A DNA stretch of 64,000 nt, taken from Candidatus Competibacteraceae bacterium. Its GTDB lineage: Bacteria; Bacteroidota; Bacteroidia; CAIKAF01. The first letter of the stretch is position 1. Each line of letters opens with the position of its first letter. The DNA lies in the NCBI GenBank assembly GCA_014879445.1, contig JACSSC010000032.1, positions 1 to 64,000 on the forward strand, written 5' to 3'. A program made the translations under genes and the position numbers. Shown piece after piece: positions 6,280-50,972 of the stretch. A model generated the notes under the pieces. The model saw only the letters and a program-made list of their open reading frames with translations. It made no database searches and was not told the DNA's origin.

Positions 6280-6421
6280 CTGTTGCCTTAAAATTTGGGT
6301 GTAAAGGTAATCAACTGTCTGAAATGCCCTAAATCTGACATGGTTTTTCAATTAAATGAAAAAAAATTTGCATGCAAAAGAAAAACATTGTATTTTTAGC
6401 TTTTGTAAATCAATACAAAGT

Positions 6422-6778
6422 ATGAGAAAGTTATTATTGTTTACACTACTTATTGGGAGCATTTTCTCCTTTTCATCTTGTTATCAAGATCCTGATTACG
6501 GAGTTGGAATTGTTACCGTATTAGATGCCAATGATTTTCGTGTTGCTTCAGCCGAGGTGGTATTGTCGCAACCCGGTCAAAACGGACAAGGAATTATACT
6601 TGTTCAAGGATATACTGACCCGAACGGAGAGTTTAAATACACACATGAACCGCCACAAACTGATTTGGCAACTGAAGTGATTTTGAATGTTTCTGTTCAA
6701 AAAGATAATGCCATTGGTGCCGGAATTATTCGCATAAAACCCAATGAGGTTGCAACGGTTACCGTTCGCATTTATTGA
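6422..6778 (+). CDS. Small lipoprotein
   Basis: A 118-aa product with a lipoprotein signal peptide; the lipobox ends FSFSSC, so Cys would be acylated near residue 20. The mature part looks like a single beta-sandwich domain with a DPNGEFKYTH turn, similar to the carboxypeptidase-regulatory or prealbumin-like folds common in Bacteroidota lipoproteins. The frame extends upstream to 6356, but the ATG at 6422 starts the signal peptide directly. It overlaps the convergent neighbour's stop by a few bases. Function unknown. Confidence 0.75.
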   Translation: MRKLLLFTLLIGSIFSFSSCYQDPDYGVGIVTVLDANDFRVASAEVVLSQPGQNGQGIILVQGYTDPNGEFKYTHEPPQTDLATEVILNVSVQKDNAIGAGIIRIKPNEVATVTVRIY

Positions 6779-7125
6779 TATTCTTCAAAGTAGCGAATGA
6801 TGGCTTCCTGTATAAGACGGTTCTGCTGAGACGCTTGAATATTTGGCAGTTTATCTGTGGGTAAATAATGAGGCCATCCATCTTCATCCCTTTTCTCAAA
6901 AACATAATAGCCAAAGATGCTTAATAGCTTGCAAACAGCAATATGCAACACTTCTGTTTTTTGTTGCTTGTCTAATGATTCAGGTACGTATTTTAATTCC
7001 TGCAATCCAATTAAAAACAGGATTCCATTGGTGTCCAAATCTTCGCCAAATCGTTGATCCAAATTCGATTTCAAATTAGCCCATTTTTGCTGAAATGTGA
7101 AGTCGTCACTTAATATAGTTTGCAT
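6772..7125 (-). CDS. Conserved hypothetical protein
   Basis: A 117-aa soluble, acidic, mostly helical protein starting MQTILSDDFTFQQKW. It looks like a small protein family found in Bacteroidota next to housekeeping genes, without a known role. The ATG at 7125 is preferred over a TTG at 7149 because the latter would overlap the divergent gene's start. The 5' ends of this gene and the CvpA-like gene lie only 17 bp apart, so at least one promoter must sit inside the other gene. Confidence 0.65.
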   Translation of the reverse strand: MQTILSDDFTFQQKWANLKSNLDQRFGEDLDTNGILFLIGLQELKYVPESLDKQQKTEVLHIAVCKLLSIFGYYVFEKRDEDGWPHYLPTDKLPNIQASQQNRLIQEAIIRYFEEYQ

Positions 7126-7142
7126 ATGCTTATCTTCGTGTC

Positions 7143-7634
7143 GTGTCAAATGTAGATATTTTTTTTGCAGTATTTTTCATTATTGCAGCTATTCTTGGAT
7201 ACAAAGCAGGCATTGTTCGTATGCTTTTAGGATTGTTGGGAATACTGCTTGGCATGTTTTTGCTCTATTATTACAGGCAATCTTTTTTAATACATGCTCA
7301 AGAATTAGCCGAACAGTATCCATATCTGTCTTTATTCATACTATCATTTTATCTGATTGGTTGCTCAGTATTGTTTATTTATATCGCTATACTCATTGAA
7401 AAATTTTTGAAACTTGTTTTTTTGAATTGGGTTAACCGATTGGTGGGAGCATTGGCTGCTGTCCTGATTACAATTGCCATGATTTCTTCTGTATTGATTG
7501 TATTGGTGAGGTTCCCATCCCACAAGCCCATGGTTTCTAGAACTCAATTACAATCATCGGTGGTGGCAAAAATGGTTTTTTGGGCTGAAGCACGGTGGTT
7601 TTATTTCCCCAATTCTGAAGATTCATTACAATGA
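7143..7634 (+). CDS. CvpA family membrane protein
   Basis: A 163-aa protein with four strongly hydrophobic segments and the N-terminal pattern VDIFFAVFFIIAAILGYKAG, matching the CvpA family (colicin V production/septal membrane proteins). These inner-membrane proteins have been linked to envelope homeostasis. The start codon is GTG at 7143; no in-frame ATG lies before the conserved first helix. The amidase gene follows 10 bp later, so the two are probably co-transcribed and both act at the cell envelope. Confidence 0.8.
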   Translation: MSNVDIFFAVFFIIAAILGYKAGIVRMLLGLLGILLGMFLLYYYRQSFLIHAQELAEQYPYLSLFILSFYLIGCSVLFIYIAILIEKFLKLVFLNWVNRLVGALAAVLITIAMISSVLIVLVRFPSHKPMVSRTQLQSSVVAKMVFWAEARWFYFPNSEDSLQ

Positions 7635-33122: not shown

Positions 33123-36100
33123 TTACTGTTTGATAATTTTGTTCAGCAGAATGAGTTCGTCATTTCCTACCACTCGAACTTTGATAGCATACACACCGGC
33201 AGCCCAGTTTGATCCGTCTAAAGAAACTAGCGTATTGCCTTCGAGCGAATAGCGGCGAAAAGATATAATGCGACCTATCATATCAATTATTTCTATATCA
33301 ACAACGCAATCCTGAGAAGTAATAAAATCTAAGAAGAATTCATTGTGAGATGGATTGGGATAAATGCTATTGATGCTTACTAAGGCACTAGGTAGTTTGC
33401 CACCCGATGCAATGGTTACGATATTTGAATAAGAATAATCGCCGTTAAAGTCTGTTTGTTTGAGGCGATAGTAACTGATAGGGAAGTAAGGCGACTCATC
33501 ATATGCATGGTAATTGATTATCATGTTGCTATTACCTGCGCCGTTTACTATAGCTATAGGCAAAAAGTTGACACCATCAGCTGAACGCTCTAGTGTAAAG
33601 TAGTCGTTATTTGTTTCGGAAGCTGTTATCCACTCAAGCCGATTTCTATCACCTTCTGCATAACCTGTAAAGCTGAGAAGCTCGATAGGAAGGGGTGTAG
33701 CAGATTGTGCAGCACCAAATTGTGAAAATCCATTCATGTTAGTACGTGTTACTACAGTGGGTGTAGATGCTGCACATATACCATTAAGTGTCCAAGTGCT
33801 TCCGTTGTCTGAAGATTTCATTACGGTCCATCCGGCTGCACTGATAATGTTTGTAGCGTTGGTAGGATACAAAGTACAAGTATAAGTCCCACTTGATGAG
33901 TTATCAGATGCATTGATCGTCCAATAGCCATTATCTTCTGCAGGAAGGTTGTAAGATGTAGAGCACTCAGATCCGCCCTGAGTAGGAGGGGCGCTTGGCC
34001 ATCCATCAAAACGTGCTGCTAATCTGGGAATATTAGTAGGTGTAGTGAATGAGATGTTGGCACGTTGATATCCTTTCACTGTGTCGCCAACCGGCAGATC
34101 ATAGCTGGCAGCTGCACCATTTAAACTACGCCATAGATTACCTGCTACAAAGCTACTTGTATTGCCAGATGAAACAGAGGAGGGTGTATTGTTTTCTATA
34201 TCAACACGGAAAGCACCTGTAATGATAGTACCCAGCGTTAAAGTGAGTGTGCCTGTATTTGATTTGATGAACATATCGCTAAACAGCTTAACCGCATTAT
34301 TAATACCACCTGCATTTTGAATGATTACATTATTTAGATCTAACTGAGAAGCTCCTTGATTATAGTTTTGCACCGCAGTACCAATAAAATGTAATGTGCC
34401 TGTCGTTCCAGTATTGCTGAATGTAGTATTCCCATCAAAATTGGACAGATTGCCACCAAGACGAATGTGTTTTCCATTTGTATTTAGGATACTAGAGGCA
34501 TTAGTGGTTATAAGGTCTCCATTTACAGTAATATTGCTTTGTAATACTACTGAGCCACTTGTTTTGTCAATCACAAAGTGATGAAATGCATCTGTTCCGA
34601 CAAAAGAACCTGTAATATTTTGCACACCGGATCCAACAAATTGTATGATAGACCCAGGTAGGCAAATCAGATTACCATTATTAGTTACATTACCGTAGAT
34701 ATTTAATGTTACATTGGGTTGAATAGTTAGCGATGCGCCGGGGGCAATGTAAATATCTTCAACATTATATGTTGTGGGATTTGTATTGGTTAGATTGGGT
34801 TGAAATGTTGATGAGCTTAGAATATAGGCATCTTTATTATAGTCAGGCATGCCGCAGCCGCCCCAGTTGATTATTTCATCCCAGTTAGAGCTATTATTTC
34901 CACCGGTCCAATAATATATATTTGATGAGTTGTATAAAATGGGTGTTGAATTAAATTGAATACTAAATCCAGAAGTAGAGTTTGAGTAATTTTGAATTAC
35001 CAGTAAAAAGGTTTCGCCGGTCAATCCGAATGGTGATACTTCATAAGCAGCATTATATCCTGAACCATACGGTGAAGGGCCATTTCCGTCTAGAGAAGTG
35101 CCTGTTACGCCTAAATAACTGTAATTACAAGCCAGTTCGCCATCGCCACCTGATGAAGATATGTTAGTGCAGTTGGTAGAGCCGGCTCCACCAATTTTCC
35201 ATAATACCCAGTCATAGTCGGTTTCATTGCCTGCGCTATTATATCCAGGGTTTGATTGACCTGTAATGGGATTGGGGTTTCCGTAGTCGTTAGGAACGAT
35301 ATTAAAGAGAATGTTGCCATCTGATGCCATAGTAAACTGATACCAAACAGAGTTGGCTTCACCATTGGTACAATTACCAGCACCTGAGAAATCGCAGGTT
35401 GCTCCAATGGCTTGGAATCCAGGATTCCCAGAGGTCATGGTAGCACCACATACTTGTAATGCAGAAGAACAATCCTGGCCTGGTAAACTATCGAAATGAT
35501 TTGTACCGTCAATGGCAACAATTTCGAATGTGCCAATCGAATTGTTGTTCCCATCTACTACAATATAGTAAGTTTGTCCGGCTGTGAGGCCTGAGAGGTG
35601 TAAGTATGAGTAGTATTGAGTGTAACCACCACACGAAGGGGCATTGTCGTTGCATGCTACAAAAGTTAGTGATGTGCAGCTTCCCGAATAAACTGCAATC
35701 TGTGGATTTTGTAAAGGTGTACCACTATTGGTTGGGAGGGTTCTTATTTTTAGTTGACCTGATGCAGGAGCAACAACTGTGTACCAAATGGAATTTATGA
35801 TGCCTGTTGACCAACAAGTTGGTTTGGCAGGTTCGTTGGCGGATCCGGCACATGCATTGTTGCCAGATGCTTGTATCCCTAAACTCAATGGCTCAGCATT
35901 GCAAGGCAAATCGTTGGCTGCTGCCCCACCTGTTCCTGATGGTGCTGTAATACTTATTGAATAGGGGTTGCAGTCAGGACTAGGCCATGAGTCAACAATA
36001 ACATAATACGTAATCCCCGCTGTAACACAAACTGTCAATGATTTATTTCCGGTAGATGATTGTGCCGAACCAACACATATACCACCTAAGGTTGGGCAAC

Positions 36101-37196
36101 CTTCGTGAACATTTAAGCTGGTATAGCTACCTGTTGAGGTAAGTGTAATATTAACATTGCCCGAAATGGTAGGTGTAAAGCTGTACGAAACGTCTTCGCC
36201 ATTGTAGTATTGTGATGCCCCGCAAATACCTGTTACATTGGTACTCGAAATATCATTGACTTTTCCACAGGTTGTTTGTCCGTTATGAGAATAGGGTAAA
36301 GTGCTAATTGCTATGTCGCCCGTTCCTAAGTTACATGATACTACATCAGATGCGCAAATGGTAAATGTGTTAGTCCCCGATCCAATGCCTTGATGATATA
36401 CTCGGATATAATAGGATTGCCCTGGTGTAAGCCCATTTAATAATACAGTTTCTGTTCCGCCATTTCCTGTTGCGTTTACGCATTGCAATGAACTAAGCGA
36501 GGCACAAGTACCTGAAAAAACCTGCACAACAGCGTCATAAGAAGCTGAAGAATTTACTGTAATTTGTGCAATGCCGGTATTAGTAGCTGTGATTTTATAC
36601 CAAACATCATCGTCGGCAGTGCCTGTGCACCCCAATTGTGATTGTGATGCATTAGACGATGTACCTGATATGGGGCTACTACAGCCGGTGAGTGGTATGT
36701 TGATGGCTTCTAAACAATTGTCGTTGGCCGGAGGGGATGAAACACAAAGTTGTCCAAGCATACTGCTTCCTGATGCTGTAACTTGCACGTAATAGTAGTT
36801 TCCAACAACTGTTGTAAATGTAATGGTTTCGTCGGCACCATTTCCAGGGTTGTCAGCACAGGTTAGGTACGACATGCTGCCACAATCGTTGATGCTGTTT
36901 TGGTATATATATACCTTAGAATCTCTATTTGTGGTTTGATTATCAAAAGTAACAGTTGTAGTGCTTGTTGTGGCCTGAAACCAAACAAATTTATCGCGAC
37001 TACCGGTGCCTCCACATTGTGTGCTAAGTGGTGTAACTGTGCTGTGATTCCAGTAAGCAACGACAGAACATTCATTAACTGCAACCTGAGCACTGCCGGC
37101 GATTGAACAATCATTGCTGGGAGTTTGGCTCCATATTGTTGTATAAAAGGTTAGGAATGTAGTGTAAAATAATATAATTTTTTTCATCATATTCAT
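33123..37196 (-). CDS. Large T9SS cargo protein with pre-peptidase-like repeats
   Basis: A 1357-aa exported protein: Sec signal peptide in the first 25 residues, then several bacterial pre-peptidase-type beta domains (about 25-700; repeated GxSYYIRV and CxxLxxLxC patterns). Around 760 begins a region with IYYWTGGNNSSNWDEIINW followed by repetitive strands, and at about 1275 the T9SS type A tail starts (IYPNPSHNEFFLDF). It has many Cys residues. It is likely a surface or released adhesin or matrix protein; no enzyme motif is visible. The ATG at 37196 or one at 37187 may be the start. Confidence 0.88.
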   Translation of the reverse strand: MNMMKKIILFYTTFLTFYTTIWSQTPSNDCSIAGSAQVAVNECSVVAYWNHSTVTPLSTQCGGTGSRDKFVWFQATTSTTTVTFDNQTTNRDSKVYIYQNSINDCGSMSYLTCADNPGNGADETITFTTVVGNYYYVQVTASGSSMLGQLCVSSPPANDNCLEAINIPLTGCSSPISGTSSNASQSQLGCTGTADDDVWYKITATNTGIAQITVNSSASYDAVVQVFSGTCASLSSLQCVNATGNGGTETVLLNGLTPGQSYYIRVYHQGIGSGTNTFTICASDVVSCNLGTGDIAISTLPYSHNGQTTCGKVNDISSTNVTGICGASQYYNGEDVSYSFTPTISGNVNITLTSTGSYTSLNVHEGCPTLGGICVGSAQSSTGNKSLTVCVTAGITYYVIVDSWPSPDCNPYSISITAPSGTGGAAANDLPCNAEPLSLGIQASGNNACAGSANEPAKPTCWSTGIINSIWYTVVAPASGQLKIRTLPTNSGTPLQNPQIAVYSGSCTSLTFVACNDNAPSCGGYTQYYSYLHLSGLTAGQTYYIVVDGNNNSIGTFEIVAIDGTNHFDSLPGQDCSSALQVCGATMTSGNPGFQAIGATCDFSGAGNCTNGEANSVWYQFTMASDGNILFNIVPNDYGNPNPITGQSNPGYNSAGNETDYDWVLWKIGGAGSTNCTNISSSGGDGELACNYSYLGVTGTSLDGNGPSPYGSGYNAAYEVSPFGLTGETFLLVIQNYSNSTSGFSIQFNSTPILYNSSNIYYWTGGNNSSNWDEIINWGGCGMPDYNKDAYILSSSTFQPNLTNTNPTTYNVEDIYIAPGASLTIQPNVTLNIYGNVTNNGNLICLPGSIIQFVGSGVQNITGSFVGTDAFHHFVIDKTSGSVVLQSNITVNGDLITTNASSILNTNGKHIRLGGNLSNFDGNTTFSNTGTTGTLHFIGTAVQNYNQGASQLDLNNVIIQNAGGINNAVKLFSDMFIKSNTGTLTLTLGTIITGAFRVDIENNTPSSVSSGNTSSFVAGNLWRSLNGAAASYDLPVGDTVKGYQRANISFTTPTNIPRLAARFDGWPSAPPTQGGSECSTSYNLPAEDNGYWTINASDNSSSGTYTCTLYPTNATNIISAAGWTVMKSSDNGSTWTLNGICAASTPTVVTRTNMNGFSQFGAAQSATPLPIELLSFTGYAEGDRNRLEWITASETNNDYFTLERSADGVNFLPIAIVNGAGNSNMIINYHAYDESPYFPISYYRLKQTDFNGDYSYSNIVTIASGGKLPSALVSINSIYPNPSHNEFFLDFITSQDCVVDIEIIDMIGRIISFRRYSLEGNTLVSLDGSNWAAGVYAIKVRVVGNDELILLNKIIKQ

Positions 37197-39732: not shown

Positions 39733-41865
39733 ATGCGTAAAAACATGCGATACAAATTAGGCATTGATATAGGCGGTACATTCACCGACTTAATACTAAT
39801 TGCCGAATCCGGCGAAACCACCATACATAAAACATTATCAACACCCGAAGATCCATCGGTAGGATTTATTAATGGCATACGTGAGTTATCGGAGATGAAT
39901 GACATGCCATTTGAGAAGTTGGTTCAAGCCATTGACACGATTGTACATGGCACAACCGTTGCCACCAATGCATTGTTAACACTCCGTGGTGCTACTACAG
40001 CGTTGGTTACGACCAAAGGATTTAGAGATGCGCTTGAGATGCGCAGAGGTATTCGAGAAGAGCAATACAACAACCATTATCGCAACGTGGAACCACTAGC
40101 CCCTCGTCATTTACGATACACCGTTAATGAGCGTATAGATGCAGAGGGAAAAATATTGCAGAAGTTAGATGAAAAAGAATTGCTATTGCTTGTTCGTAAG
40201 CTTAAAATGAGTAAGGTAGAGTCGGTAGCTATTTGTTTTATGAACTCATACAAAAATGCGATTCATGAAAAAAAGGCGTTGCAGTATTTAAGAAAAAATC
40301 TGCCCGGAATATTCATAACTGCATCATATGAAGTATTGCCATCGATACGATTTTATGAGCGCATCAGCACAACAACAGTGAGTGCGTATGTGGGGCCCAT
40401 TGTAGCAAATTATTTTGAGAAGTTGCAACAGAAACTACGTGAAATAAAATTCACGGGAGTATTGTTGGTGATGCAATCCAACGGTGGTGTCGTATCGCCG
40501 GAGGCGGTATGTAAGAACCCTGCCGTTACAGTGTTATCGGGGCCTGCTGCTGCACCCACAGCCGGTGCATTTTATTCCAAGATGTTAAACTATAGAAACT
40601 GTATTACAGTAGATATGGGTGGCACCAGTTTTGATGCTGCGTTGGTAATAGACAATCAGTGCATAACCGGAACAGAAGGAAGCATTAATCGATATCGCAT
40701 CGCATTGCCGTCGCTTGATATCATTACCATTGGCGCCGGTGGAGGCAGCATTGGATGGATTAATGAAGGCGGATTACTGCAAATGGGGCCTCAAAGTGCA
40801 GGCGCATTACCCGGTCCTGTTTGTTATAATCGTGGTGGCGAATTACCAACCTGCACCGACGCAGATTTACTACTTGGATACTTGAATCCTACATTTTTTG
40901 CTGGAGGGAAACTGAAGCTGGACAAGAAAAAAGCTGAAAAATCCATTCAAGAAAAACTAGCATCTCCATTAGGATTGTCATTATTGGAAGCTGCAGCCGG
41001 CATGTATCGTATCATTAATAGCAATATGGCGCAGGGCGTAAGACAAATTTCCATTGAGCGCGGCTATGACCCCCGAGAATTTTTATTTATAGTAGCCGGC
41101 GGAGCGGGATCAATACATGCTTCTGAAATATGCAAAGAGTTGGAAATACCCATGTTTTTAGTGCCAAATGTATCATCCATCTTTTGTGCAGCCGGCATGC
41201 TACTCGGCGATTTAAAACATGATTACATTCGCTCATATTACACCTCATTTCAAAGTATGGATAAAAAGAAATTCCTATCACTTTTTAAAGAAATGCAGGA
41301 AGAAGGATTAACGACATTGTCTGGAGAAGGGGTAAACAAAAACAAAGTAACTTATCAGCCGGTAATTGATATGCGCTATAACGGGCAATATCATGAAGTG
41401 CAATTATCGTGCAACTGGGATGATATTTTGAACTTGCGTTTTGATAATATCTTTGAGACCTTTCATCATGAGCATAATCGACAGTTTGGATACTCATTGA
41501 AAGAAGAAGGCACCGAAATGGAAATTATCAACCTTAGGTTACGAGTAACCGGTCATAACGAAAAACCTCAATTTCTTTCGAAAAACACTCGCCGAATCAG
41601 TGCATCCGATGCCATTAAAGAGCATCGAGACGTATATATACCTGAGCTAAACAAAATGAAAAAAGTACCTGTATATGATGGAGACCAACCCATTTGGGGC
41701 GAAACCATTCAAGGTCCTTGCGTCATAGAAAAAATCACAACTTGCATTTTTGTCAGCGAAGGATACACGTGTAAGGTTGACGATTGGGGTTCGTTTTTGG
41801 TACATGAAAAAACCCATTCGCCTGCAAGATTAAAACAAGCAAAACTTTCAGCGCATGCAAATTGA
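39733..41865 (+). CDS. Hydantoinase/oxoprolinase A-type ATPase subunit (HyuA-like)
   Basis: A 710-aa protein with the ASKHA-type phosphate-binding start (LGIDIGGTFTDLI), GTTVATNALL and a later VDMGGTSFDAAL motif, and the RISTTTVSAYVGP block. The family includes N-methylhydantoinase A, 5-oxoprolinase and the beta subunit of acetone and acetophenone carboxylases, enzymes that use ATP to open a ring or activate a substrate. It overlaps its HyuB partner by 11 bp. The true start may be the ATG at 39745 (MRYKLGIDIG). Exact reaction unknown. First gene of the nine-gene cluster. Confidence 0.88.
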   Translation: MRKNMRYKLGIDIGGTFTDLILIAESGETTIHKTLSTPEDPSVGFINGIRELSEMNDMPFEKLVQAIDTIVHGTTVATNALLTLRGATTALVTTKGFRDALEMRRGIREEQYNNHYRNVEPLAPRHLRYTVNERIDAEGKILQKLDEKELLLLVRKLKMSKVESVAICFMNSYKNAIHEKKALQYLRKNLPGIFITASYEVLPSIRFYERISTTTVSAYVGPIVANYFEKLQQKLREIKFTGVLLVMQSNGGVVSPEAVCKNPAVTVLSGPAAAPTAGAFYSKMLNYRNCITVDMGGTSFDAALVIDNQCITGTEGSINRYRIALPSLDIITIGAGGGSIGWINEGGLLQMGPQSAGALPGPVCYNRGGELPTCTDADLLLGYLNPTFFAGGKLKLDKKKAEKSIQEKLASPLGLSLLEAAAGMYRIINSNMAQGVRQISIERGYDPREFLFIVAGGAGSIHASEICKELEIPMFLVPNVSSIFCAAGMLLGDLKHDYIRSYYTSFQSMDKKKFLSLFKEMQEEGLTTLSGEGVNKNKVTYQPVIDMRYNGQYHEVQLSCNWDDILNLRFDNIFETFHHEHNRQFGYSLKEEGTEMEIINLRLRVTGHNEKPQFLSKNTRRISASDAIKEHRDVYIPELNKMKKVPVYDGDQPIWGETIQGPCVIEKITTCIFVSEGYTCKVDDWGSFLVHEKTHSPARLKQAKLSAHAN

Positions 41866-43549
41866 TAAAATTTTGGTTTCGCTATTTCAGCGGGCATTCA
41901 AATCCATTACAGATGAGATGAGTATTTCGCTGACAAAGACCACGCGTTCGCCAATACTCTGTGAGGCAAAAGATTTTGTTACCGGACTATATGATGCAGA
42001 AGGTCGGATGCTTGAACAAACCGAGAATCTGCCCATCCTTTCATTTTCATTGGGGCCTGTTTGCAAAGTGATTTTAGAGCAATATGGGAGCAACATTCAC
42101 GAAGGAGATGTGATTATCCACAACGATGTTTTTTCGATGGGCAATCAGAACAATGATGTGGCCATATTCAAGCCCATTTTTGCCAAGGGTAAATTAGTGG
42201 GATGGTCGGCAGCCAAAGGGCATCAGGCCGATATTGGCGGAGCCGTGCAGGGTGGCTATAACCCCAATGCAACTGAAGTATGGCAGGAGGCCATTCGCAT
42301 TCCCGCCACCAAGCTATACGAAAAAGGCAAATTGCGTAAAGACGTTTGGAATCTGATTTTTGCAAACATTAGATTACAAATGGTACAGGAAGATATTAAA
42401 GCACAGATAGGCGCATGTACATTGGGTGAAAGACGACTTCAGGTGTTTGTAGAAAAATACGGATTAGAAGTATTTGAAGCACACAAGCAAGCACTCTTTG
42501 ACAGTACCGAAAAGATGATGAGATCGGAAATTAGAAAAATTCCCAACGGAGTATACGAAGGCAAAAGCATGGTATATTATGATGGGAAGCATAAAGGCAC
42601 ACGTTTCCCCATCCATGCCAAAATCTCTGTAAAAAGCGATCAAATTGTTTTTGATTTTTCCAAATCATCGCCACAAACAAAAGGGTTTGTGAATGGCACA
42701 TACACATCAACCTGTTCGGCCATCACGCTTACATTGCTACAAATGGTTAATCCACATATTCCGCATAATGAAGGAATGCTCAAGCCGTTGACATACATCG
42801 TACCCGAAGGCACTATTCTGAATGCCTCATGGCCGGCAGCCACTACGTTTGGCAATCATCTTTGTCCTCAAATAGCCGATTCTATTTTCAAGGCACTTGG
42901 TCCGGCAGTGCCTGATCGAATTACAGCAGGGTGGAATCACTTATTATGTTCTTTATTCACAGGCACGCATGTACGCACGGGAAGAAAATATGTTGATATT
43001 TGTTTTTTGGGAATGAAAGGAGGTGGCGGAGCGCTTAAAGGCAACGACGGATATGATCATATTGGTATGATTGATGCGTCGGGCGGAGTACTTGATCAGG
43101 ATTATGAAATGTATGAGATACAAACACCACACCTCATACTTCAACATGAATATCTTTGTGATTCGGGAGGAGCTGGACAATGGAGAGGCGGTTTAGGAAC
43201 TGAAACAAAAATATGGCTTCGAGGCAATGATACGACGATGGTAGTATTTGGAGATGGAGATATCGAGCCCAACTATGGCTTATTTGGTGGTAAAGGCAGT
43301 GTGCTGAATAAAATTGAATTACGTTATAAAAACGGAAAAAAAATTATTCCACTAAACAAAGATATCATATTGGGCATACCCGACAAAACACTCTATTATC
43401 AGATAGCCGGAGGCGGAGGTGGGTATGGGAATCCAAAAAAACGAGATAGAAACAGTGTGTTACGCGACTTAAAAAATGAAGTGATTTCAAAAAAAGCAGC
43501 TGAGAAAATTTATGGATTAAAAACAGCATCAAAAAGAAAAAAACCATGA
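41855..43549 (+). CDS. Hydantoinase/oxoprolinase B-type subunit (HyuB-like)
   Basis: A 564-aa partner of the A subunit: SISLTKTTRSPILCEAKDF start, GDVIIHNDVFSMGNQNNDVA metal and substrate region, and the YLCDSGGAGQWRGGLGTE glycine-rich motif. Together A and B form an ATP-dependent amidohydrolase or carboxylase. The Lys-rich C-terminus ends 4 bp into the next gene (ATGA overlap), so the third gene is translated in step with it. Its length is near that of hydantoinase B and shorter than the acetone carboxylase alpha subunit. Confidence 0.88.
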   Translation: MQIDKILVSLFQRAFKSITDEMSISLTKTTRSPILCEAKDFVTGLYDAEGRMLEQTENLPILSFSLGPVCKVILEQYGSNIHEGDVIIHNDVFSMGNQNNDVAIFKPIFAKGKLVGWSAAKGHQADIGGAVQGGYNPNATEVWQEAIRIPATKLYEKGKLRKDVWNLIFANIRLQMVQEDIKAQIGACTLGERRLQVFVEKYGLEVFEAHKQALFDSTEKMMRSEIRKIPNGVYEGKSMVYYDGKHKGTRFPIHAKISVKSDQIVFDFSKSSPQTKGFVNGTYTSTCSAITLTLLQMVNPHIPHNEGMLKPLTYIVPEGTILNASWPAATTFGNHLCPQIADSIFKALGPAVPDRITAGWNHLLCSLFTGTHVRTGRKYVDICFLGMKGGGGALKGNDGYDHIGMIDASGGVLDQDYEMYEIQTPHLILQHEYLCDSGGAGQWRGGLGTETKIWLRGNDTTMVVFGDGDIEPNYGLFGGKGSVLNKIELRYKNGKKIIPLNKDIILGIPDKTLYYQIAGGGGGYGNPKKRDRNSVLRDLKNEVISKKAAEKIYGLKTASKRKKP

Positions 43550-44025
43550 GTGCACAAGCAGAAACAGGTTGCTGTCCCCGATTTGATGTTAGTAATTGGG
43601 ATGAAAAAGAATGGATTTGGCAAGAGAGGCGTTTTATTAAAGACCGCGTTATAAGTTTTTTTCACATACCGCTCAACTTTTCGAAAGTAATCATCAGGAA
43701 TATGCAGAAGATGGAGAAGGCCGGCGCTCAGAATCCTGATAATCTTATGCTATCGGATGAAAACTCATTATGGAGCTCGGACTTATATATTGCCACAGAC
43801 AAAGAAGTGGCAGATGCCCATCATGCAACTTTAAATGGGACATTCCTTTCAAAGGTATTTGAAGGTCCTTATCGTGATGCACCAAAATGGGGAAAAAAAT
43901 TCAGACAGATGTTGGAAAAAAAAGGAATTGCTTTCAATAAAATTTACTTTTGGTACACAACCTGCCCTCGATGTGCTAAGGTATATGGGAAAAACTATGT
44001 AGTACTATTTGCAAAAATGATTTAA
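43546..44025 (+). CDS. Uncharacterised 159-aa protein, third gene of the HyuAB module
   Basis: I do not recognise a defined family with certainty. The protein has a CCPRFDVSNWDEKE start, a FFHIPLNFSKV helix, LMLSDENSLWSSDLYIATDKE, a FEGPYRDAPKW turn that recalls GyrI-like ligand-binding domains, and ends YFWYTTCPRCAKVYGKNY with a CxxC. It resembles short proteins labelled hydrolase in databases, without evidence. In acetone carboxylases a third, roughly 160-170-aa gamma subunit follows A and B; this protein is of similar size and place, but I see no sequence match. It overlaps hyuB by 4 bp and RidA follows 2 bp later. Confidence 0.7.
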   Translation: MSAQAETGCCPRFDVSNWDEKEWIWQERRFIKDRVISFFHIPLNFSKVIIRNMQKMEKAGAQNPDNLMLSDENSLWSSDLYIATDKEVADAHHATLNGTFLSKVFEGPYRDAPKWGKKFRQMLEKKGIAFNKIYFWYTTCPRCAKVYGKNYVVLFAKMI

Positions 44026-44027
44026 CT

Positions 44028-44432
44028 ATGCGTCATGAAATTATTTTGCCAGATGGCTGGCCTGTACCCAAAGGATATTCAAACGGCATTCTTGCTGCAA
44101 ATGGAAGGCCTCTATTTATGGCCGGACAAGTAGGATGGACAGCAGAAGAAAAGTTTAACAGCGAAGCGCTAGTACCTCAATTTGCTCAGGCACTAAAAAA
44201 TATCAGAGCTATTGTGGAAAAAGCCGGTGGGCAAACAACAGACATATGTAAAATGACTTGCTTCTGTAAAGACCGAGAGCAATATATTGCTTCACGAAGA
44301 GAATTAGGCAAGGTATGGAAAGAAATTATGGGAAATCATTATCCATGCATGAGCATGATCTTTGTTGTAGATTTACTTGACCATCCTGCATTAATTGAGA
44401 TTGAAGCCATGGCAGTGATACCCGAATCATGA
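44028..44432 (+). CDS. RidA family protein
   Basis: A 134-aa YjgF/UK114 fold protein. RidA proteins hydrolyse reactive enamine or imine intermediates; related members sit in degradation operons of amides, pyrimidines and tryptophan. Seen: GYSNGILAANGRPLFMAGQVG, ALKNIRAIVEKAGG, and the IFVVDLLDHPALIEIEAMAV end. The canonical catalytic Arg near residue 105 (as in IRVFVDL) is not obvious; Ile-Phe-Val-Val stands there, so it may be a non-archetypal member. Its presence in the cluster hints at a nitrogen-containing intermediate. Confidence 0.88.
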   Translation: MRHEIILPDGWPVPKGYSNGILAANGRPLFMAGQVGWTAEEKFNSEALVPQFAQALKNIRAIVEKAGGQTTDICKMTCFCKDREQYIASRRELGKVWKEIMGNHYPCMSMIFVVDLLDHPALIEIEAMAVIPES

Positions 44433-45556
44433 TAGCACTCACCGACATACAAAAAGAAGTACAGAAAACTTTTCAAGAGTTTACGGATAAACACGTGAAA
44501 CCAGTTGCTTCGAAAATTGATGAAGAGAAACAATTTCCTCATACATTATTTAAACAGGTTGGCGACTTAGGATTTTTCGGAATGCGATATCCGCAAAGCG
44601 AAGGGGGTGAGGGGTTAGATGTAGTTTCATACATACTAGCGGTTATGGAATTATCTCGCGGATCCATGTCGCTGGCAGCTGCATGCACTATGCAATCCCT
44701 AATGGGAACTTACTTTTTGTACCGATTTGGTAATACAGAAATCAAAGAGCATTATTTCTTAGAAGCATTAAAGGGTAATAAGATTGGTGGCATATGCATG
44801 ACAGAGCCCGATGCTGGCAGCGACCTGATGTCAATCAAAACAACAGCTACGGTAACGGCAGACGGATTTATACTCAATGGTCAAAAAACATGGATCACAT
44901 CAGCGCCTGTAGCCAACTTCTTTACAGTGTTTGCCCGAACTAATAACCACGATCAACTATCTATTTTCTTTGTACCTGCAACAGCTCAGGGCGTGATGAT
45001 TGGAAAGAATATTGAGAAGATGGGTGTTCGGGCTTCGCTAACCAGTGAAGTTGCATTTGACAATGTTCATCTTCCTCCACATTATTTATTAGGTGAAATA
45101 GGCAGTGGTACAAAATGTCTTCGTGAAATATTAGCAGAAATTCGTATCATGACAGGCGCATTGGCAATTGGTATAGCTACGGCAGCATATCAAGATGCCT
45201 TGGAATACGCTAATACCAGGATACAGTTTGGAAAGCCGGTTGGCAAGTTTCAGGCCATTCAACTCAAATTTGCCGATATGGCTGTGAAACTTGAAACAGC
45301 CAAGAGCTATGTGCTGTATGCTGCTTCTCTTAGTGATAGTAATCAGCCACGACAAAAAGAATCAATGATTGCCAAGCTTTATGCATCAGAATGTGCTGCT
45401 TCTATTTGTGACGAAGCCAGCAGGGTATTGGCATCGTATGGATATGCTACAGAATATAACATGGAGCGTTATTTACGAGATGTGCGGTTTACGCTAATTG
45501 GTGGAGGTACATCTGAAATCCTTAAAATTAATATTGCAAAAGAGATGGGATTATAA
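44429..45556 (+). CDS. Acyl-CoA dehydrogenase
   Basis: A 375-aa FAD enzyme making 2-enoyl-CoA. FAD and substrate motifs: GGICMTEPDAGSDLMSIKT, GQKTWITSAPVANFF, and the YLRDVRFTLIGGGTSEI end. The Glu of the medium-chain type (YEGT) is Gly359 here; instead Glu237 in LAEIRIMTG lies where isovaleryl- and long-chain enzymes keep their base. A branched or long acyl-CoA is therefore more likely than a short straight one (inference). It overlaps RidA by 4 bp and is followed by the B12-binding subunit. Confidence 0.92.
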   Translation: MIALTDIQKEVQKTFQEFTDKHVKPVASKIDEEKQFPHTLFKQVGDLGFFGMRYPQSEGGEGLDVVSYILAVMELSRGSMSLAAACTMQSLMGTYFLYRFGNTEIKEHYFLEALKGNKIGGICMTEPDAGSDLMSIKTTATVTADGFILNGQKTWITSAPVANFFTVFARTNNHDQLSIFFVPATAQGVMIGKNIEKMGVRASLTSEVAFDNVHLPPHYLLGEIGSGTKCLREILAEIRIMTGALAIGIATAAYQDALEYANTRIQFGKPVGKFQAIQLKFADMAVKLETAKSYVLYAASLSDSNQPRQKESMIAKLYASECAASICDEASRVLASYGYATEYNMERYLRDVRFTLIGGGTSEILKINIAKEMGL

Positions 45557-45567
45557 TACAAATAACG

Positions 45568-45960
45568 ATGGGAAAAATAAAAAAAGTAGTATTAGCGAAA
45601 CCCGGCCTCGATGGCCACGATGTAGGTGTAAAAGTTATTGCACATGCCCTGATTGAAAATGGCTATGATGTCGTTTATACAGGTCTGCGCAAATCCATTG
45701 AATTTATTGTTGATAAAGCAGAGAAAGAAAATGCGGATGCAATTGGTTTGTCAATTCTTTCTGGAACACACAAACTCATTTGCCAACGCATGCACGAATT
45801 AATGAATGAAAGAAACCTGCATACGCCTTGGTTTGTGGGTGGCAACATTCCCCAGCAAGATGTAGCATATCTCGAGTCGCACGGTGCTCACAAAGCATTT
45901 CCAACAGGCACAACCATTGAAGAAGTGCTTCAATATTTGCATACCATTTCAAACGCATAA
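45568..45960 (+). CDS. B12-binding subunit of an acyl-CoA mutase
   Basis: A 130-aa Rossmann-type cobalamin domain with the DxHxxG motif at residues 15-20 (LDGHDVG; His17 is the axial Co ligand), the SIL segment and the GGN loop. It is the separate small subunit of split mutases such as methylmalonyl-, isobutyryl- or 2-hydroxyisobutyryl-CoA mutase. The large subunit lies 3.4 kb downstream at 49341, with thiolase and hydratase genes between, rather than next to it. Confidence 0.92.
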   Translation: MGKIKKVVLAKPGLDGHDVGVKVIAHALIENGYDVVYTGLRKSIEFIVDKAEKENADAIGLSILSGTHKLICQRMHELMNERNLHTPWFVGGNIPQQDVAYLESHGAHKAFPTGTTIEEVLQYLHTISNA

Positions 45961-45979
45961 AAATATAGAACAAAAAAAG

Positions 45980-47176
45980 ATGAAGAAAGTAAAATCAATG
46001 TTTCCGGAAGCCCGCATACCATATGGAACATGGGGCAGTAGTTATTTTCCTGCTTGGCAGTCATCGCCGTTAGCCGAGGTAAATATCGGACAATTTGCAG
46101 GCGAAGCCATGGCGCGTATCATGGGATTACGAAAAACACCTGTATCTCATCTCGATTATTTAGTGATCGGTTCAACCGTTCCTTGGCACTATAAATTTTG
46201 GAATGCTACCGTTGTAGCAAGCTGTATGGGAAAACGTGTGCCCGGCTTTCAAATGGAGCAGGCCTGCGCTACCGGCCTTCAGGCCATTATACTGGCCGGC
46301 GCACAAGTGCAAAGCGGTGCAAGCAAAGTTGCCGGCGTATTGACATTTGACCGTACAAGTGATTCTCCAGTTGGTGTATTTCCTGAGCGTCGTGCTTACA
46401 GGCGTACTGAAGTTATCAGTGATGTTTGGGATAACTTCGGATTTGATCCAGCAACAGGTGGTTCCATGCTGGCTTCTGCCGGTAATGTGGCTAGAAAACA
46501 TAAAATCGAGAAGAAGGAAGTGGATGAACTCACAGCTTATCGCTATGAGCAATACTTTAAAGCAAAGGAATCTGGCTTTATCAAAAGATACGCTGTCCCT
46601 TTAGAAATTCTTAATATGCAGGGCAAATCTATGGGTATGATAGAAGAGGATATGGGTGTAAAAAAATTATCGTTGGACTCACTTCGTGCCATGCGTGAAT
46701 TGGATAGTTGTGTTACAGGGGGAACACAAACTCATGCTGCCGATGGTATGGCAACATTGCTCGTTACATCAACTGATAAAGCTAAAGAGCTAAGCCGTAA
46801 TCCGAAAGTAGATATTCAATTCATTGCTAAAGCTGAAGTACGAGTGGGGCCTGGCATGATGCCTGAAGCACCCGCCGTTGCTGTTCAAAAAATTCTGAAA
46901 CAAACCGGATTAACAATGCAGGATATTGCAGTTGTGAAAGATCATAATCCTTTTGCTATCAACGATGCTGTATTTGCTAAAGTGATGAACTACGACTGGA
47001 GAAAAATGAACAATACAGGAAGTCCTTTGGTTTGGGGCCATCCGCAAGGACCAACGCTTACACGTGTAACCATTGAAGCGCTGGAAGAAGCGGTGGATCT
47101 CGGCGGGGGGTATGTACTTATCTTTGGATGTGCGGCCGGCGATGTGGGGATTGCATCTATATTTAAAGTGAATTAA
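45980..47176 (+). CDS. Thiolase family acyl-CoA acyltransferase
   Basis: A 398-aa thiolase. Catalytic residues are all there: Cys96 in QACATG, the HNPFA motif (NEAFA in FadA), His354 in GHPQGPT and Cys384 in FGCAAGDVGIA; the 30-residue gap from His to Cys equals that of known thiolases. It would split a 3-ketoacyl-CoA to acetyl- or propionyl-CoA. The ATG at 45980 is chosen since the open frame upstream overlaps the B12 subunit. The WGHPQG and CATG variants are unusual for classic FadA and suggest a side branch of the family. Confidence 0.9.
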   Translation: MKKVKSMFPEARIPYGTWGSSYFPAWQSSPLAEVNIGQFAGEAMARIMGLRKTPVSHLDYLVIGSTVPWHYKFWNATVVASCMGKRVPGFQMEQACATGLQAIILAGAQVQSGASKVAGVLTFDRTSDSPVGVFPERRAYRRTEVISDVWDNFGFDPATGGSMLASAGNVARKHKIEKKEVDELTAYRYEQYFKAKESGFIKRYAVPLEILNMQGKSMGMIEEDMGVKKLSLDSLRAMRELDSCVTGGTQTHAADGMATLLVTSTDKAKELSRNPKVDIQFIAKAEVRVGPGMMPEAPAVAVQKILKQTGLTMQDIAVVKDHNPFAINDAVFAKVMNYDWRKMNNTGSPLVWGHPQGPTLTRVTIEALEEAVDLGGGYVLIFGCAAGDVGIASIFKVN

Positions 47177-47201
47177 TAATATTGACAAAAAGACAAGAGA
47201 T

Positions 47202-49286
47202 ATGACTAATAAAATGCGTGCATCAACACTGGAATCTCTCAAGTTAGGTTCTGTGTTGGATATTTTTAAAAAGGGTACTTTACCTGTAACAACTGATGAA
47301 TTAATTGACAAGGTTTTTGGGCCTAAAGGCAAACGCGGAGCCATGATTATTTCTGGAGCAAGTGGAATTGTTGGCGCTGGTAAAGTTATGCAGTTTGCTT
47401 CCCGTCTTAAACCTTATGGCATTCCCATTATTGCTCTTGACCTGCCAGGCGCCCCCGACGGAATTGGAAAACAGTACAAAGGATTAGTAAGGGCATTTGG
47501 TCGCGACGGCGCCAATGATATCATGAAGAATATCATTCAGCTGACTTATGATGGCAAATCATTGCCCGATACGCTGAAATCATACAATCCCAAATTTTTG
47601 CTCGAAGCCATTCCCGAAAACTTGGAACTTAAAAAAGCCCATTACAAACTCTTTAAAAAGGATTTTCCAGATATTCACATTTGGTCTGTTACGTCAGGAT
47701 TCCCTTCCAAACAGCTTGGCGTTGGTATTGCACATCCCGCTTTTCCACACGAAATCAATAAGATTTTTGAGATTGTGGAGAAAACACCTTCTGCTCAAAC
47801 GCAAATGCTTTGGGCTTTAGGTCTAATTCCTATGGAAGTAAGTGATGACTGGTCATTTGTTTTAGATGTATTTTTCTGCGGATTGATGTTAGCCAGCTTG
47901 CAATATCAAGAAAAAACAAATATGCCATTTTGGAAAGCAGATAAATATATTCGTCAAATCATTGGGCCCAATCCATTCAGAGCTCATGATGCGATAGGAG
48001 CTAAAGGGGCAAACTTCCTTACTTGGTCATGCCTTTATCATTTGAGCAAAGAATACGGACCACTTTTTGAACCCACACAATCACTTAATGAGCACAAAGA
48101 CAGCGGTCAAAATTGGTATCCACCTGACCATTTCAGGCCGATGGTAAACTGGCAAATCAACGATAAAGAAAAGGAAGATTTGCGCAACATCATTTATGGA
48201 TCTTTGTATCAAATGACATCCATCATGATTAAAGAAAAACGCTCAGATTTTGTTTCGATGAATGCTATTGGCGAGCTCTGCGCTCAGTTTACTCGTGGCA
48301 TGCTGGCTATTATGCGAAATGAAGGAGCAACAAATATTATAAATACAGTAAAGGCCTATCACAAACTTCATCCTTTAGCAGCCAAAACCAAATGGTATCC
48401 TGAGGTTTTCAAAAAAATGGATTCTCCAGAATGGCAACAGCTTTATGTTAATGCAGAACATGACGGCAAAGCAGGTGTTATTACCATCAGTCGTGAAAGC
48501 TACAACAGTGACGTGGATGCCGAACTGAATCGTGCTATTGATTGGTTAAAGAAGAACAAAATCAAGCGTGTTATCGTAACAAGTGATTTTCATTTTTCAA
48601 CACAAATGGTGGGAGCTGATACTACCGAGTTTTTCCCAGCGCTTACCGAAACAAAAGAAGGATTTCGTGTGGCACATACTTGGTCGAAAACTGCACGCAG
48701 GTTGTATAATGAATTCGAAATATCAATAGGATTTATCAATGGAAAAAGATGTATGGGTGGTATGCTTGAATTGATGATGCATTGTCATTATATGTTTGCT
48801 GATGCCGACACGACTTTAGCCATGCCTGAAGTAACACTTCCTGTGGTTCCTGGTATGGAAGGTTGTCATTGGGCCATTCGCAAAGCCAAACCAACCGACA
48901 GAAATAAACTTATTTCTATGCTGCTTGATGGCAAACAGGTTAAAGCTAAAGATACGGTTGGATGGTTTGTTGACTATGCAGGCACACTAGAATCAGGTAT
49001 TAAAAAATCCTGGGAAATTGTGCAAAAAGGAAATGGCGTTTTACCACTCAGAAAAGTAGATCCCGGATCGCTGAATATTTCAGTAAAGAAGGCAAAAATT
49101 CCATCCTCAGGTAATCCTGATTTTGAAGAAGCCAAACAAGCTATATCAAATTGTATAGAGCAATCATGCAATACTACGTTGGCAAAAGCCATCGAAGTTC
49201 AGGCACGGCACTCAGCTGATTTTATGGTAACACGGCTTTGCAGAAAAGGCCGCGTTGGCAGCGAATACGATAAAATAATGCAATAA
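47202..49286 (+). CDS. 3-hydroxyacyl-CoA dehydrogenase / enoyl-CoA hydratase fusion
   Basis: A 694-aa fusion with the dehydrogenase first (residues 40-410; NAD motif ISGASGIVGAGKV, LEAIPENLELK, catalytic His in AHPAFP) and the crotonase-type hydratase second (about 430-694; GGMLELMMHCH with Glu523 and MPEVTLPVVPG with Glu543, 20 apart as in rat hydratase Glu144/Glu164). This order is the reverse of FadB/FadJ and recalls archaeal crotonyl-CoA hydratase/dehydrogenase fusions. The Asn of SNTS is Val here (SVTSG). It carries out two central steps of beta-oxidation for the cluster. Confidence 0.88.
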   Translation: MTNKMRASTLESLKLGSVLDIFKKGTLPVTTDELIDKVFGPKGKRGAMIISGASGIVGAGKVMQFASRLKPYGIPIIALDLPGAPDGIGKQYKGLVRAFGRDGANDIMKNIIQLTYDGKSLPDTLKSYNPKFLLEAIPENLELKKAHYKLFKKDFPDIHIWSVTSGFPSKQLGVGIAHPAFPHEINKIFEIVEKTPSAQTQMLWALGLIPMEVSDDWSFVLDVFFCGLMLASLQYQEKTNMPFWKADKYIRQIIGPNPFRAHDAIGAKGANFLTWSCLYHLSKEYGPLFEPTQSLNEHKDSGQNWYPPDHFRPMVNWQINDKEKEDLRNIIYGSLYQMTSIMIKEKRSDFVSMNAIGELCAQFTRGMLAIMRNEGATNIINTVKAYHKLHPLAAKTKWYPEVFKKMDSPEWQQLYVNAEHDGKAGVITISRESYNSDVDAELNRAIDWLKKNKIKRVIVTSDFHFSTQMVGADTTEFFPALTETKEGFRVAHTWSKTARRLYNEFEISIGFINGKRCMGGMLELMMHCHYMFADADTTLAMPEVTLPVVPGMEGCHWAIRKAKPTDRNKLISMLLDGKQVKAKDTVGWFVDYAGTLESGIKKSWEIVQKGNGVLPLRKVDPGSLNISVKKAKIPSSGNPDFEEAKQAISNCIEQSCNTTLAKAIEVQARHSADFMVTRLCRKGRVGSEYDKIMQ

Positions 49287-49290
49287 ATTT

Positions 49291-49325
49291 CAGTTGCTCA
49301 TTCTATCCGTATGAGTGGGCAACTG
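49291..49325 (+). other. Intercistronic hairpin between the fusion gene and the mutase
   Basis: CAGTTGC at 49291-49297 pairs with GCAACTG at 49319-49325, with inner TCAT/ATGA pairing, a bulge and a roughly 13-base loop. It lies in the 54-bp gap before the mutase. No T run follows, so attenuation or mRNA processing fits better than full termination. Confidence 0.5.
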
Positions 49326-49340
49326 ATTTAATCAACGAAG

Positions 49341-50972
49341 ATGTCAGCAATGGAAACAGCAAAAAAAACTCAGCTAACCGATGAAACACAAAAAGTGTTT
49401 CTCGAATCGGGCATAGAAGTAGCGCCTCTTTATACCCGCGAAGATATGCTTGCAGGCAATCCGGATATAGATTTAGAACGCCCGGGCAAATATCCGTTTA
49501 CTAGAGGCATACATCCTCTGATGTACCGTAAACGACCGTTTACCATCAGGCAATATGCCGGATTCGCATCGCCCGAAGAAACCAATGAGCGTTTTCAGTT
49601 TTTGATTAAGAACGGACAAAATGGTTTGAATGTAGCATTTGATTTACCGACCCAGTGCGGACTTGACTCGGACGATCCACGGTCACTTGGCGAAGTGGGG
49701 CGCGTTGGTATGTCTATCGATACACTCGAAGATTTTGAAATTGCATTTCGTGGTATTGATTTGGAAAAAATCACGGTTTCAATGACCATCAACGGGTCGG
49801 CATTGGTTATGATGGCGATGTATTTTGCCCTCGCCGAAAAAAGAGGATATGACTTAAAGAATCTTCGTGGTACTGCACAAAATGATATTCTCAAAGAATT
49901 TATTGGAAGGGGTACATGGATTTTCCCAGTAGATAAATCTGTAAAAATTGTGGTTGATACGATAGAATATTGTGCCAAACATGTTCCTAAATACAGCCCT
50001 GTTAGCATCTGCGGGTATCATATTCGTGAAAGCGGAGCCAATCCTATACAAGAAATGGCATATGCATTTTGTATTGCAAAAGCATATTCGGATGAAACAT
50101 TAAAGCGAGGTATTGATATTGACGAATTCGCCTCACGACTTTCATACAATTTTGATATTTACGGCAACTTCTTTGAACAAATTGCAAAATTTAGAGGAGG
50201 TCGTCGTTTATGGGCTAAAATCATGAAAGAAGAATATAAGGCCACGAAAGAAGAATCATGCTGGATGCGCATGATTGCAGGCGGTGGTGGTGCCGGTCTA
50301 ACGAAAGAACAGCCCGAAAATAATATTGTACGTACTGCATACTATGCATTAATTTCAGCATTATCAGGCACGCAAACGATGGCCCTTTGCACTTATGATG
50401 AGGCATACACCATACCTACTGAAAAAGCTGCAGAAATTGCCCTGCGAACTATGCAAATCATGATTCACGAAATGGGTATCTGCGATACTGTGGACCCGCT
50501 AGGAGGTTCGTATTATGTGGAGTCGCTCACCAATCGCTTTGAAGAAGAAATAAAAAATGAAATGAAAAAGGTGGATGCCTGGGGTGGTATCATTCAAGCT
50601 GTTGCTAATGGTAAGATTCAGGAAGCTGTTTCAAAACAGGCCTATCAAAGAGAAAAAGCCGTGCAAGATGGTGACACATTAAAAGTAGGCGTTAATTGCT
50701 TTAAGAGTGAAGAAGGCGACAGGCCAGTTGAGTTTCATCCATACAATGAAGATGCAGCACAAAAACAAATTTCTAAACTCAAAAAAATTAAATCCGAACG
50801 AGATGAGTCGGCTGTTAAATCAGCTCTTGAACAACTGCGTAACGATGCATCCCAAAACAACAACCTCATGCCTGCTACCATTGAAGCAGTTAAGGCATAC
50901 GCTACTGTTGGAGAAATTATTCAGGTGATAAAAGATATTTATGGCGAATACAACGAACCTATTTTCTTTTAA
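49341..50972 (+). CDS. Methylmalonyl-CoA mutase-family large subunit
   Basis: A 543-aa TIM-barrel mutase subunit without its own B12 domain. Substrate residues: Tyr72 in RQYAGF and Arg190 in EFIGRGTWIFP align with Tyr89 and Arg207 of methylmalonyl-CoA mutase; isobutyryl- and 2-hydroxyisobutyryl-CoA mutases have Phe or Ile and Gln there. His227 in GYHIRESG is conserved. So a dicarboxylic acyl-CoA such as methylmalonyl-CoA is favoured, although YHIRE is also typical of the isobutyryl group. The next gene starts 32 bp before its stop. No MeaB chaperone or epimerase lies near. Confidence 0.9.
   Translation: MSAMETAKKTQLTDETQKVFLESGIEVAPLYTREDMLAGNPDIDLERPGKYPFTRGIHPLMYRKRPFTIRQYAGFASPEETNERFQFLIKNGQNGLNVAFDLPTQCGLDSDDPRSLGEVGRVGMSIDTLEDFEIAFRGIDLEKITVSMTINGSALVMMAMYFALAEKRGYDLKNLRGTAQNDILKEFIGRGTWIFPVDKSVKIVVDTIEYCAKHVPKYSPVSICGYHIRESGANPIQEMAYAFCIAKAYSDETLKRGIDIDEFASRLSYNFDIYGNFFEQIAKFRGGRRLWAKIMKEEYKATKEESCWMRMIAGGGGAGLTKEQPENNIVRTAYYALISALSGTQTMALCTYDEAYTIPTEKAAEIALRTMQIMIHEMGICDTVDPLGGSYYVESLTNRFEEEIKNEMKKVDAWGGIIQAVANGKIQEAVSKQAYQREKAVQDGDTLKVGVNCFKSEEGDRPVEFHPYNEDAAQKQISKLKKIKSERDESAVKSALEQLRNDASQNNNLMPATIEAVKAYATVGEIIQVIKDIYGEYNEPIFF

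Follow-up and report, generated by a model that had tools for sequence, protein, structure and literature searches.

P0001, a protein of 159 residues whose gene lies between hyuB and ridA in an operon with a probable role in cyclic-amide degradation, belongs to the Pfam family PF20603, has a predicted GyrI-like fold and carries four invariant cysteines, and its relatives co-occur with HyuB in the bacterial class of the window (the whole stretch of 64,000 nucleotides analysed here). Moreover, two catalytic acids of cyclopropanoid hydrolases (CCH) are missing in a tentative residue register, and the place between hyuB and ridA is repeated in a second genus. We consider it an even bet that P0001 is a GyrI-like binding protein with a metal or thiol site and that a cyclic-amide pathway uses it as an accessory, though not an obligate one. 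Most useful among the new results are the fold, the cysteine signature, the lack of the hydrolase residues and the co-occurrence at class level: A family annotated as hydrolase appears to lack the residues on which the known hydrolases of this fold depend, and a first, testable clue to the role of such a protein comes from its co-occurrence with a hydantoinase-type operon across the class.

The operon and its enzyme

The gene of P0001 is embedded in the following features:

39733 to 41865, plus strand: HyuA-like ATP-binding subunit, 710 aa (Pfam; nearest solved chain 6yra_A)
41855 to 43549, plus strand: HyuB-like metal subunit, 564 aa (Pfam; nearest solved chain 6yra_B)
43546 to 43549, plus strand: ATGA, four bases shared by the hyuB stop and the P0001 start (ORF coordinates)
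43546 to 44025, plus strand: P0001, PF20603 protein with GyrI-like fold, between hyuB and ridA (ORF, Pfam, predicted model)
44028 to 44432, plus strand: RidA-like protein (Pfam); in most homologous operons its gene comes directly after hyuB, with no P0001 between
44429 to 45556, plus strand: acyl-CoA dehydrogenase (Pfam)
45568 to 45960, plus strand: B12-binding small subunit of a methylmalonyl-CoA-mutase-like enzyme (Pfam, NCBIfam)
45980 to 47176, plus strand: thiolase-like protein (start chosen; the ORF list has an earlier GTG at 45884)
47202 to 49286, plus strand: 694-aa protein with weak 3HCDH_N and enoyl-CoA-hydratase matches (profile matches)
49341 to 50972, plus strand: methylmalonyl-CoA-mutase-like large subunit (Pfam, NCBIfam)

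The first-pass annotation had described this open reading frame, its four-base overlap with hyuB, a CxxC and a FEGPY turn, all of which we verified on the sequence: The frame runs from an ATG start to a TAA stop, the CxxC is C140-P-R-C143 close to the C-terminus, and FEGPY comprises residues 105–109. The ATGA overlap suggests translational coupling of hyuB and P0001, which would then be co-translated with HyuAB in this organism. A gap of two bases separates the P0001 stop from the RidA-like frame. The GC content of the gene, about 38–40%, is in line with the rest of the operon, and promoter and terminator scans gave no excess over shuffles.

Among solved structures, HyuA scores highest against 6yra_A (490 bits), followed by N-methylhydantoinase (7hk5; 446), acetophenone carboxylase gamma (351) and acetone carboxylase beta (239); the scores of HyuB are 324 for 6yra_B, 255 for N-methylhydantoinase, 116 for acetophenone carboxylase delta and 82 for acetone carboxylase alpha. 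The molecules of 6yra are deposited as 5-oxoprolinase and Hydantoinase, and we take the entry to be the ATP-dependent caprolactamase CapAB, with 6yra_A as CapA. The best NCBIfam models are those of the caprolactamase alpha (688 bits) and beta (396 bits) subunits, each below its cut-off of 1000. Because HyuAB is thus nearest to caprolactamase and N-methylhydantoinase, the operon is more likely of the lactam/hydantoin type than an AcxABC carboxylase. A literature search found no described pathway for a HyuAB-RidA-ACAD-thiolase-B12 mutase operon (39733–50972).

The same operon type has another insertion at L112 (genome G051; 5799–7222 of the reverse complement), where a 190-aa membrane-type and a CxxCH-rich protein are encoded between ridA and the acyl-CoA dehydrogenase gene. 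In G030 and G702 (L111, 6879–9448; L154, 10535–13068) the genes of the thiolase and the 694-aa protein are replaced by those of a 452–458-aa CxxC...CxxC protein and a different, 390–397-aa thiolase-like protein (names given by eye). Elsewhere in the window, the minus strand encodes a 1357-aa protein (33123–37196) with a signal-like start; its C-terminal end presumably resembles a type IX secretion sorting domain (both by eye).

Family, predicted fold and conserved residues

P0001 is a strong member of PF20603 (“Bact_hydrolase”, “Bacterial hydrolase”): The profile matches 154 residues at model positions 5–159 of 160 with 212.1 bits (E 5.6e-63; gathering cut-off 27), all motifs are present, and the profile also recognises 58 of 58 aligned relatives. 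The family name is not a demonstration of function; P0001 is a protein of the small-molecule-binding type, and PF20603 is widespread and little studied. A full-text search of open-licence literature for “PF20603” returned no paper, no NCBIfam model matches P0001, and the GyrI-like profile PF06445 finds neither P0001 at E ≤0.1 nor any of 58 members at E ≤1. Searched by sequence against solved structures, P0001 produced chance-level matches only (VipE, E 1.7; enoyl-CoA hydratase, E 0.65). A genome scan yielded at least 549 relatives, the best 80 of which, many from short contigs, were kept for analysis. These 80 stem from Planctomycetota, Chloroflexota, Patescibacteria groups, Woesearchaeota, Methanoperedens and others. 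The distribution of PF20603 over bacteria and archaea is scattered and extends to very small genomes, where each gene matters; phyla are intermixed in the family tree, and in the window's phylum 8 of 395 genomes carry PF20603. No relative was confirmed in viral contigs.

The AlphaFold model, computed from 58 aligned sequences (57 of the best 80 relatives and the window's own), has a pLDDT of 90.2 and a pTM of 0.84, with a mean pLDDT of 67 for residues 1–10, and its elements follow the order E-H-E-E-E-H-E-H-E. Foldseek ranks CTR107 and its rhodamine-tag derivatives, lin2189, STM3175, BmrR, SbmC and EcmrR as best matches (E 7e-6 to 2e-5 for CTR107/Rho-tag and lin2189). With VIA-align, Z is 13.8 for the EcmrR C-domain, 13.6 for CTR107 and 11.2 for SbmC and lin2189, and drops to 6.0 at the first row outside the GyrI/BmrR/SOUL group. 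The predicted fold is of the GyrI/BmrR-C/SOUL type with two SHS2 units, matched over the whole domain. In view of these structural matches, the “GyrI-like” turn that the first-pass annotation had seen in FEGPY was a good hint, borne out by model and matches alike.

Residue conservation was counted in 92 PF20603 members (P0001, 88 loci and three further genomes). Y137, T138, C140, P141, C143 and N150 are invariant in all 92, as are C9, C10, F13 and W18 in the 91 rows that have a residue there; the 92nd row is that of genome G281 (L009/L012), whose PF20603 gene is broken into two frames and keeps the CC pair in its N-terminal piece. The count for C140 and C143 is biased, because the patterns of the genome scan spanned this motif; the 12 members read from pattern-free searches keep both cysteines too. 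Aromatic residues are conserved at W76 (90 of 92), Y109 (85, with phenylalanine in 7), W115 (91) and Y137 (92).

Does the Pfam name nevertheless hint at a hydrolase of the CCH kind? The fold predicted for P0001 is that of lin2189, and the aromatic residues W76, Y109, W115 and Y137 are conserved. According to the excerpted text of PMC5684135, lin2189 (PDB 5x5m, 5x5r) hydrolyses yatakemycin by means of E157 and E185 within an aromatic cage, whereas GyrI-like proteins devoid of this acid pair do not hydrolyse it. We took the lin2189 motifs GPFSEE and HHEIY from a PDB alignment and aligned the two families by hhalign; the match is weak (probability 18%, E 0.0013), so that the residue register is tentative. 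In this register, P0001 position 112 corresponds to E157, 135 to E185, Y137 to Y187 and C140 to the next aspartate position. Under the same tentative register, the members have A, M, V, I, T, S or F at position 112; at position 135, 76 of them have F and the others M, C, S, T, L, A or I. D or E occurs in 0 of 92 at either site; P0001 thus lacks the acid pair. As to the cage of Y46, W85, W99, F154 and Y187, Y109 lines up with F154, Y137 with Y187 and, by eye, W76 with W85. With both essential acids missing in 92 of 92 members, albeit in a tentative register, and with acid-less GyrI-like proteins inactive on yatakemycin, we regard a CCH-type hydrolase as very improbable.

Association with HyuB

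A close HyuB (E 1e-100 or better) is found in 24 of the 395 genomes of the window's class, where it is scattered and lacking in the three other genomes of the window's genus. Relatives of P0001 occur in 11 of the 395, nine of which also hold a close HyuB. Expressed by host, 9 of 24 HyuB genomes carry a relative compared with 2 of 371 others (Fisher p 1.1e-10); by genus the ratio is 6 of 16 versus 1 of 180 (p 7e-7), and p is still 1.1e-4 when the window's own genus and G703, counted as a carrier on a 27-residue fragment only, are left out. Within family f33, carriers make up 3 of 6 HyuB genomes versus 0 of 40 (p 0.0013; by genus p 0.05). Ancestry and habitat are possible confounders of such figures, and the counts were made by genome, genus and family. 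The two class carriers without HyuB (G665 and G715) are still negative at E 0.001, genus g26 comprises one carrier with and one without HyuB, and among seven carriers in the phylum's other classes, five have no HyuB match and two a distant one (27–29% identity). In seven of the nine co-occurring genomes the two genes lie on different contigs. The class III ribonucleotide reductase NRDD, an anaerobic marker, was detected in 0 of 13 carriers, 1 of 17 other HyuB genomes and 2 of 48 others; anaerobic life therefore does not explain the co-occurrence. Since the P0001 gene and the hyu operon occur together in this class much more often than chance predicts, a pathway link is plausible. The “ligand-binding accessory” of the first-pass annotation holds as regards the fold (model, Foldseek and VIA-align) and fits the co-occurrence, with ligand binding and function putative.

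RidA is encoded downstream of hyuB in 21 of the 24 close-HyuB genomes, and in two of these 21 operons, the window and G702, a PF20603 gene lies in between. A third in-operon case, G780 of the same genus as G702, emerged when P0001 was searched against 46 genomes of that family. The five syntenic operons read in detail have ridA directly after hyuB, and all five lack the basic C-terminal tail TASKRKKP of the window's HyuB (43520–43549), which points to an insertion at the hyuB stop; the tail is probably its scar. In a few related bacteria, then, a P0001-type gene has slipped into the hyu operon. G702 and G780 share 59–60% identity with the window in the PF20603 protein and 79.7–79.8% in HyuA, compared with up to 75.9% for other relatives in the HyuA parts read. 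One insertion that spread through transfer of the operon would be the simplest history, since the AU test does not reject a single clade of the three in-operon PF20603 proteins (p 0.861); the HyuB tree gives no resolution on this point. Between G780 and G702, dN/dS is 0.030/0.276 for the PF20603 gene and 0.012/0.291 for HyuB. The former ratio, about 0.11, indicates that selection maintains the P0001 gene within the operon.

Across the family the neighbourhood is different. The 89 relative loci amount to 88 places, because L013 and L033 coincide, and with the window as positive control none of the 89 holds a relative of the window's HyuA, HyuB or other operon proteins at E 1e-4. In 45 of 49 carrier genomes tested (from the best 80 of at least 549 relatives), PF02538 (HyuB) is absent. 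The stand-alone copies have 73 co-directional neighbours, no family of which recurs in more than four members, and the 10 loci of the window's class have few neighbours in common apart from the PF20603 gene. A family of about 260 aa lies 3′ of the PF20603 gene in 10 planctomycete-type loci (e.g., L024, 10475–11266); one member, scanned alone, gave no Pfam match.

Role of P0001 and comparison with known systems

The first-pass annotation had seen the size and order of AcxABC-type carboxylases in HyuA, HyuB and P0001; the size does not fit HyuB, which has 564 aa versus 776 in acetone carboxylase alpha. It had rightly judged the protein unlike AcxC, as P0001 has no PF08882 match in a search of all Pfam models at E ≤0.1, and homology to AcxC is rejected for want of this profile match; a PF08882 search of its own genome also found nothing, with the controls silent as well. 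Its proposal of a new third subunit does not stand as the family role. HyuAB is near the gene at 0 of 89 loci, HyuB is missing from 45 of 49 carrier genomes tested (from the best 80 of at least 549 relatives), and the gene is missing from 19 of 21 hyuB-ridA operons; on these three counts a conserved third carboxylase or HyuAB subunit is rejected as the role of the family. A confident match to a family without HyuAB neighbours elsewhere, which the annotation itself had named as the outcome that would speak against it, is what we obtained. A lineage-specific version, in which P0001 acts as a third HyuAB subunit in the manner of AcxC gamma, with its gene inside the operon here (in cis) and away from it (in trans) in the class's other HyuB genomes, could draw on the four-base overlap and gene order, the co-occurrence with HyuB, and the small size and four cysteines that P0001 shares with AcxC (the latter as given in the excerpt of PMC5543143). 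We think it very improbable: the gene is wholly absent from 15 of 24 HyuB genomes, the AcxC profile finds no match, the GyrI-like model differs from the Yippee-like AcxC, and HyuAB is nearest to caprolactamase, which the consulted excerpt of PMC8453981 describes as a two-subunit enzyme.

A weightier possibility, which we would not call likely but take seriously, is that P0001 is a generic stand-alone binding or detoxification protein, co-expressed with HyuAB without any role in its chemistry, and that shared habitat and gene exchange create the co-occurrence. The scatter of PF20603 over bacteria and archaea, small genomes included, its unconserved neighbourhood, the 45 of 49 tested carriers (from the best 80 of at least 549) without HyuB and the 19 of 21 hyuB-ridA operons with no gene at that spot all agree with this. 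However, the co-occurrence holds within the class and within one family, the in-operon gene is found in two genera of two families and is under purifying selection, and the anaerobic marker is absent from all 13 carriers.

In the accessory role to which we give even chances, P0001 would have its ligand, a small molecule and probably an aromatic or acyl one, in the groove that separates the two fold halves. The N-terminal CC and the C-terminal CPxC may jointly hold a structural metal, most likely zinc; alternatively, they may work as thiols near the groove. The protein could bind or buffer a compound of an ATP-dependent lactam/hydantoin-type pathway, be it substrate, product or reactive intermediate, and would not be a core subunit. 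More speculatively, and in our view rather doubtful, PF20603 as found in archaea, small-genome bacteria and Planctomycetota could be a separate GyrI-like class, in which a four-cysteine (CC...CPxC) metal/thiol centre replaces the usual acidic ligand site and which one Bacteroidota class has recruited, in cis (three genomes) or in trans, as the dedicated partner of an ATP-dependent cyclic-amide pathway feeding a B12 mutase.

Set beside known systems, the enzyme encoded by the operon has CapAB and N-methylhydantoinase (7hk5) as its nearest solved relatives, but differs from caprolactamase in that its subunits score under the respective NCBIfam cut-offs. AcxC resembles P0001 in being small, in following two Hyu-type subunits and in having four cysteines. 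In the excerpt of PMC5543143, however, acetone carboxylase gamma is Yippee-like and its zinc site comprises Cys74, 76, 124 and 127, so that a C74-x-C76...C124-xx-C127 spacing contrasts with CC...CxxC in P0001; the latter has a GyrI-like model and leaves the PF08882 profile unmatched, and Yippee-like chains are absent among the matches listed for this model, which excludes nothing alone. Relative to PF20603 members elsewhere, P0001 is unusual in its location within a hyuAB-ridA operon and no different in sequence. lin2189 shares with it the fold, the GPY/GPF turn and the tyrosine at the Y187 position, whereas the equivalents of E157 and E185 are non-acidic in 92 of 92 PF20603 members (tentative register). 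The GyrI-like binders as a whole (CTR107, SbmC/GyrI, the BmrR and EcmrR C-domains, SOUL/HEBP) have their fold in common with the P0001 model over 131–145 aligned residues (Z about 11–14), yet only about 7–14% identity, and P0001 has no PF06445 match at E ≤0.1. They carry a glutamate two residues ahead of the conserved tyrosine, where PF20603 mostly has an aromatic residue, and the four invariant cysteines also set PF20603 apart from them.
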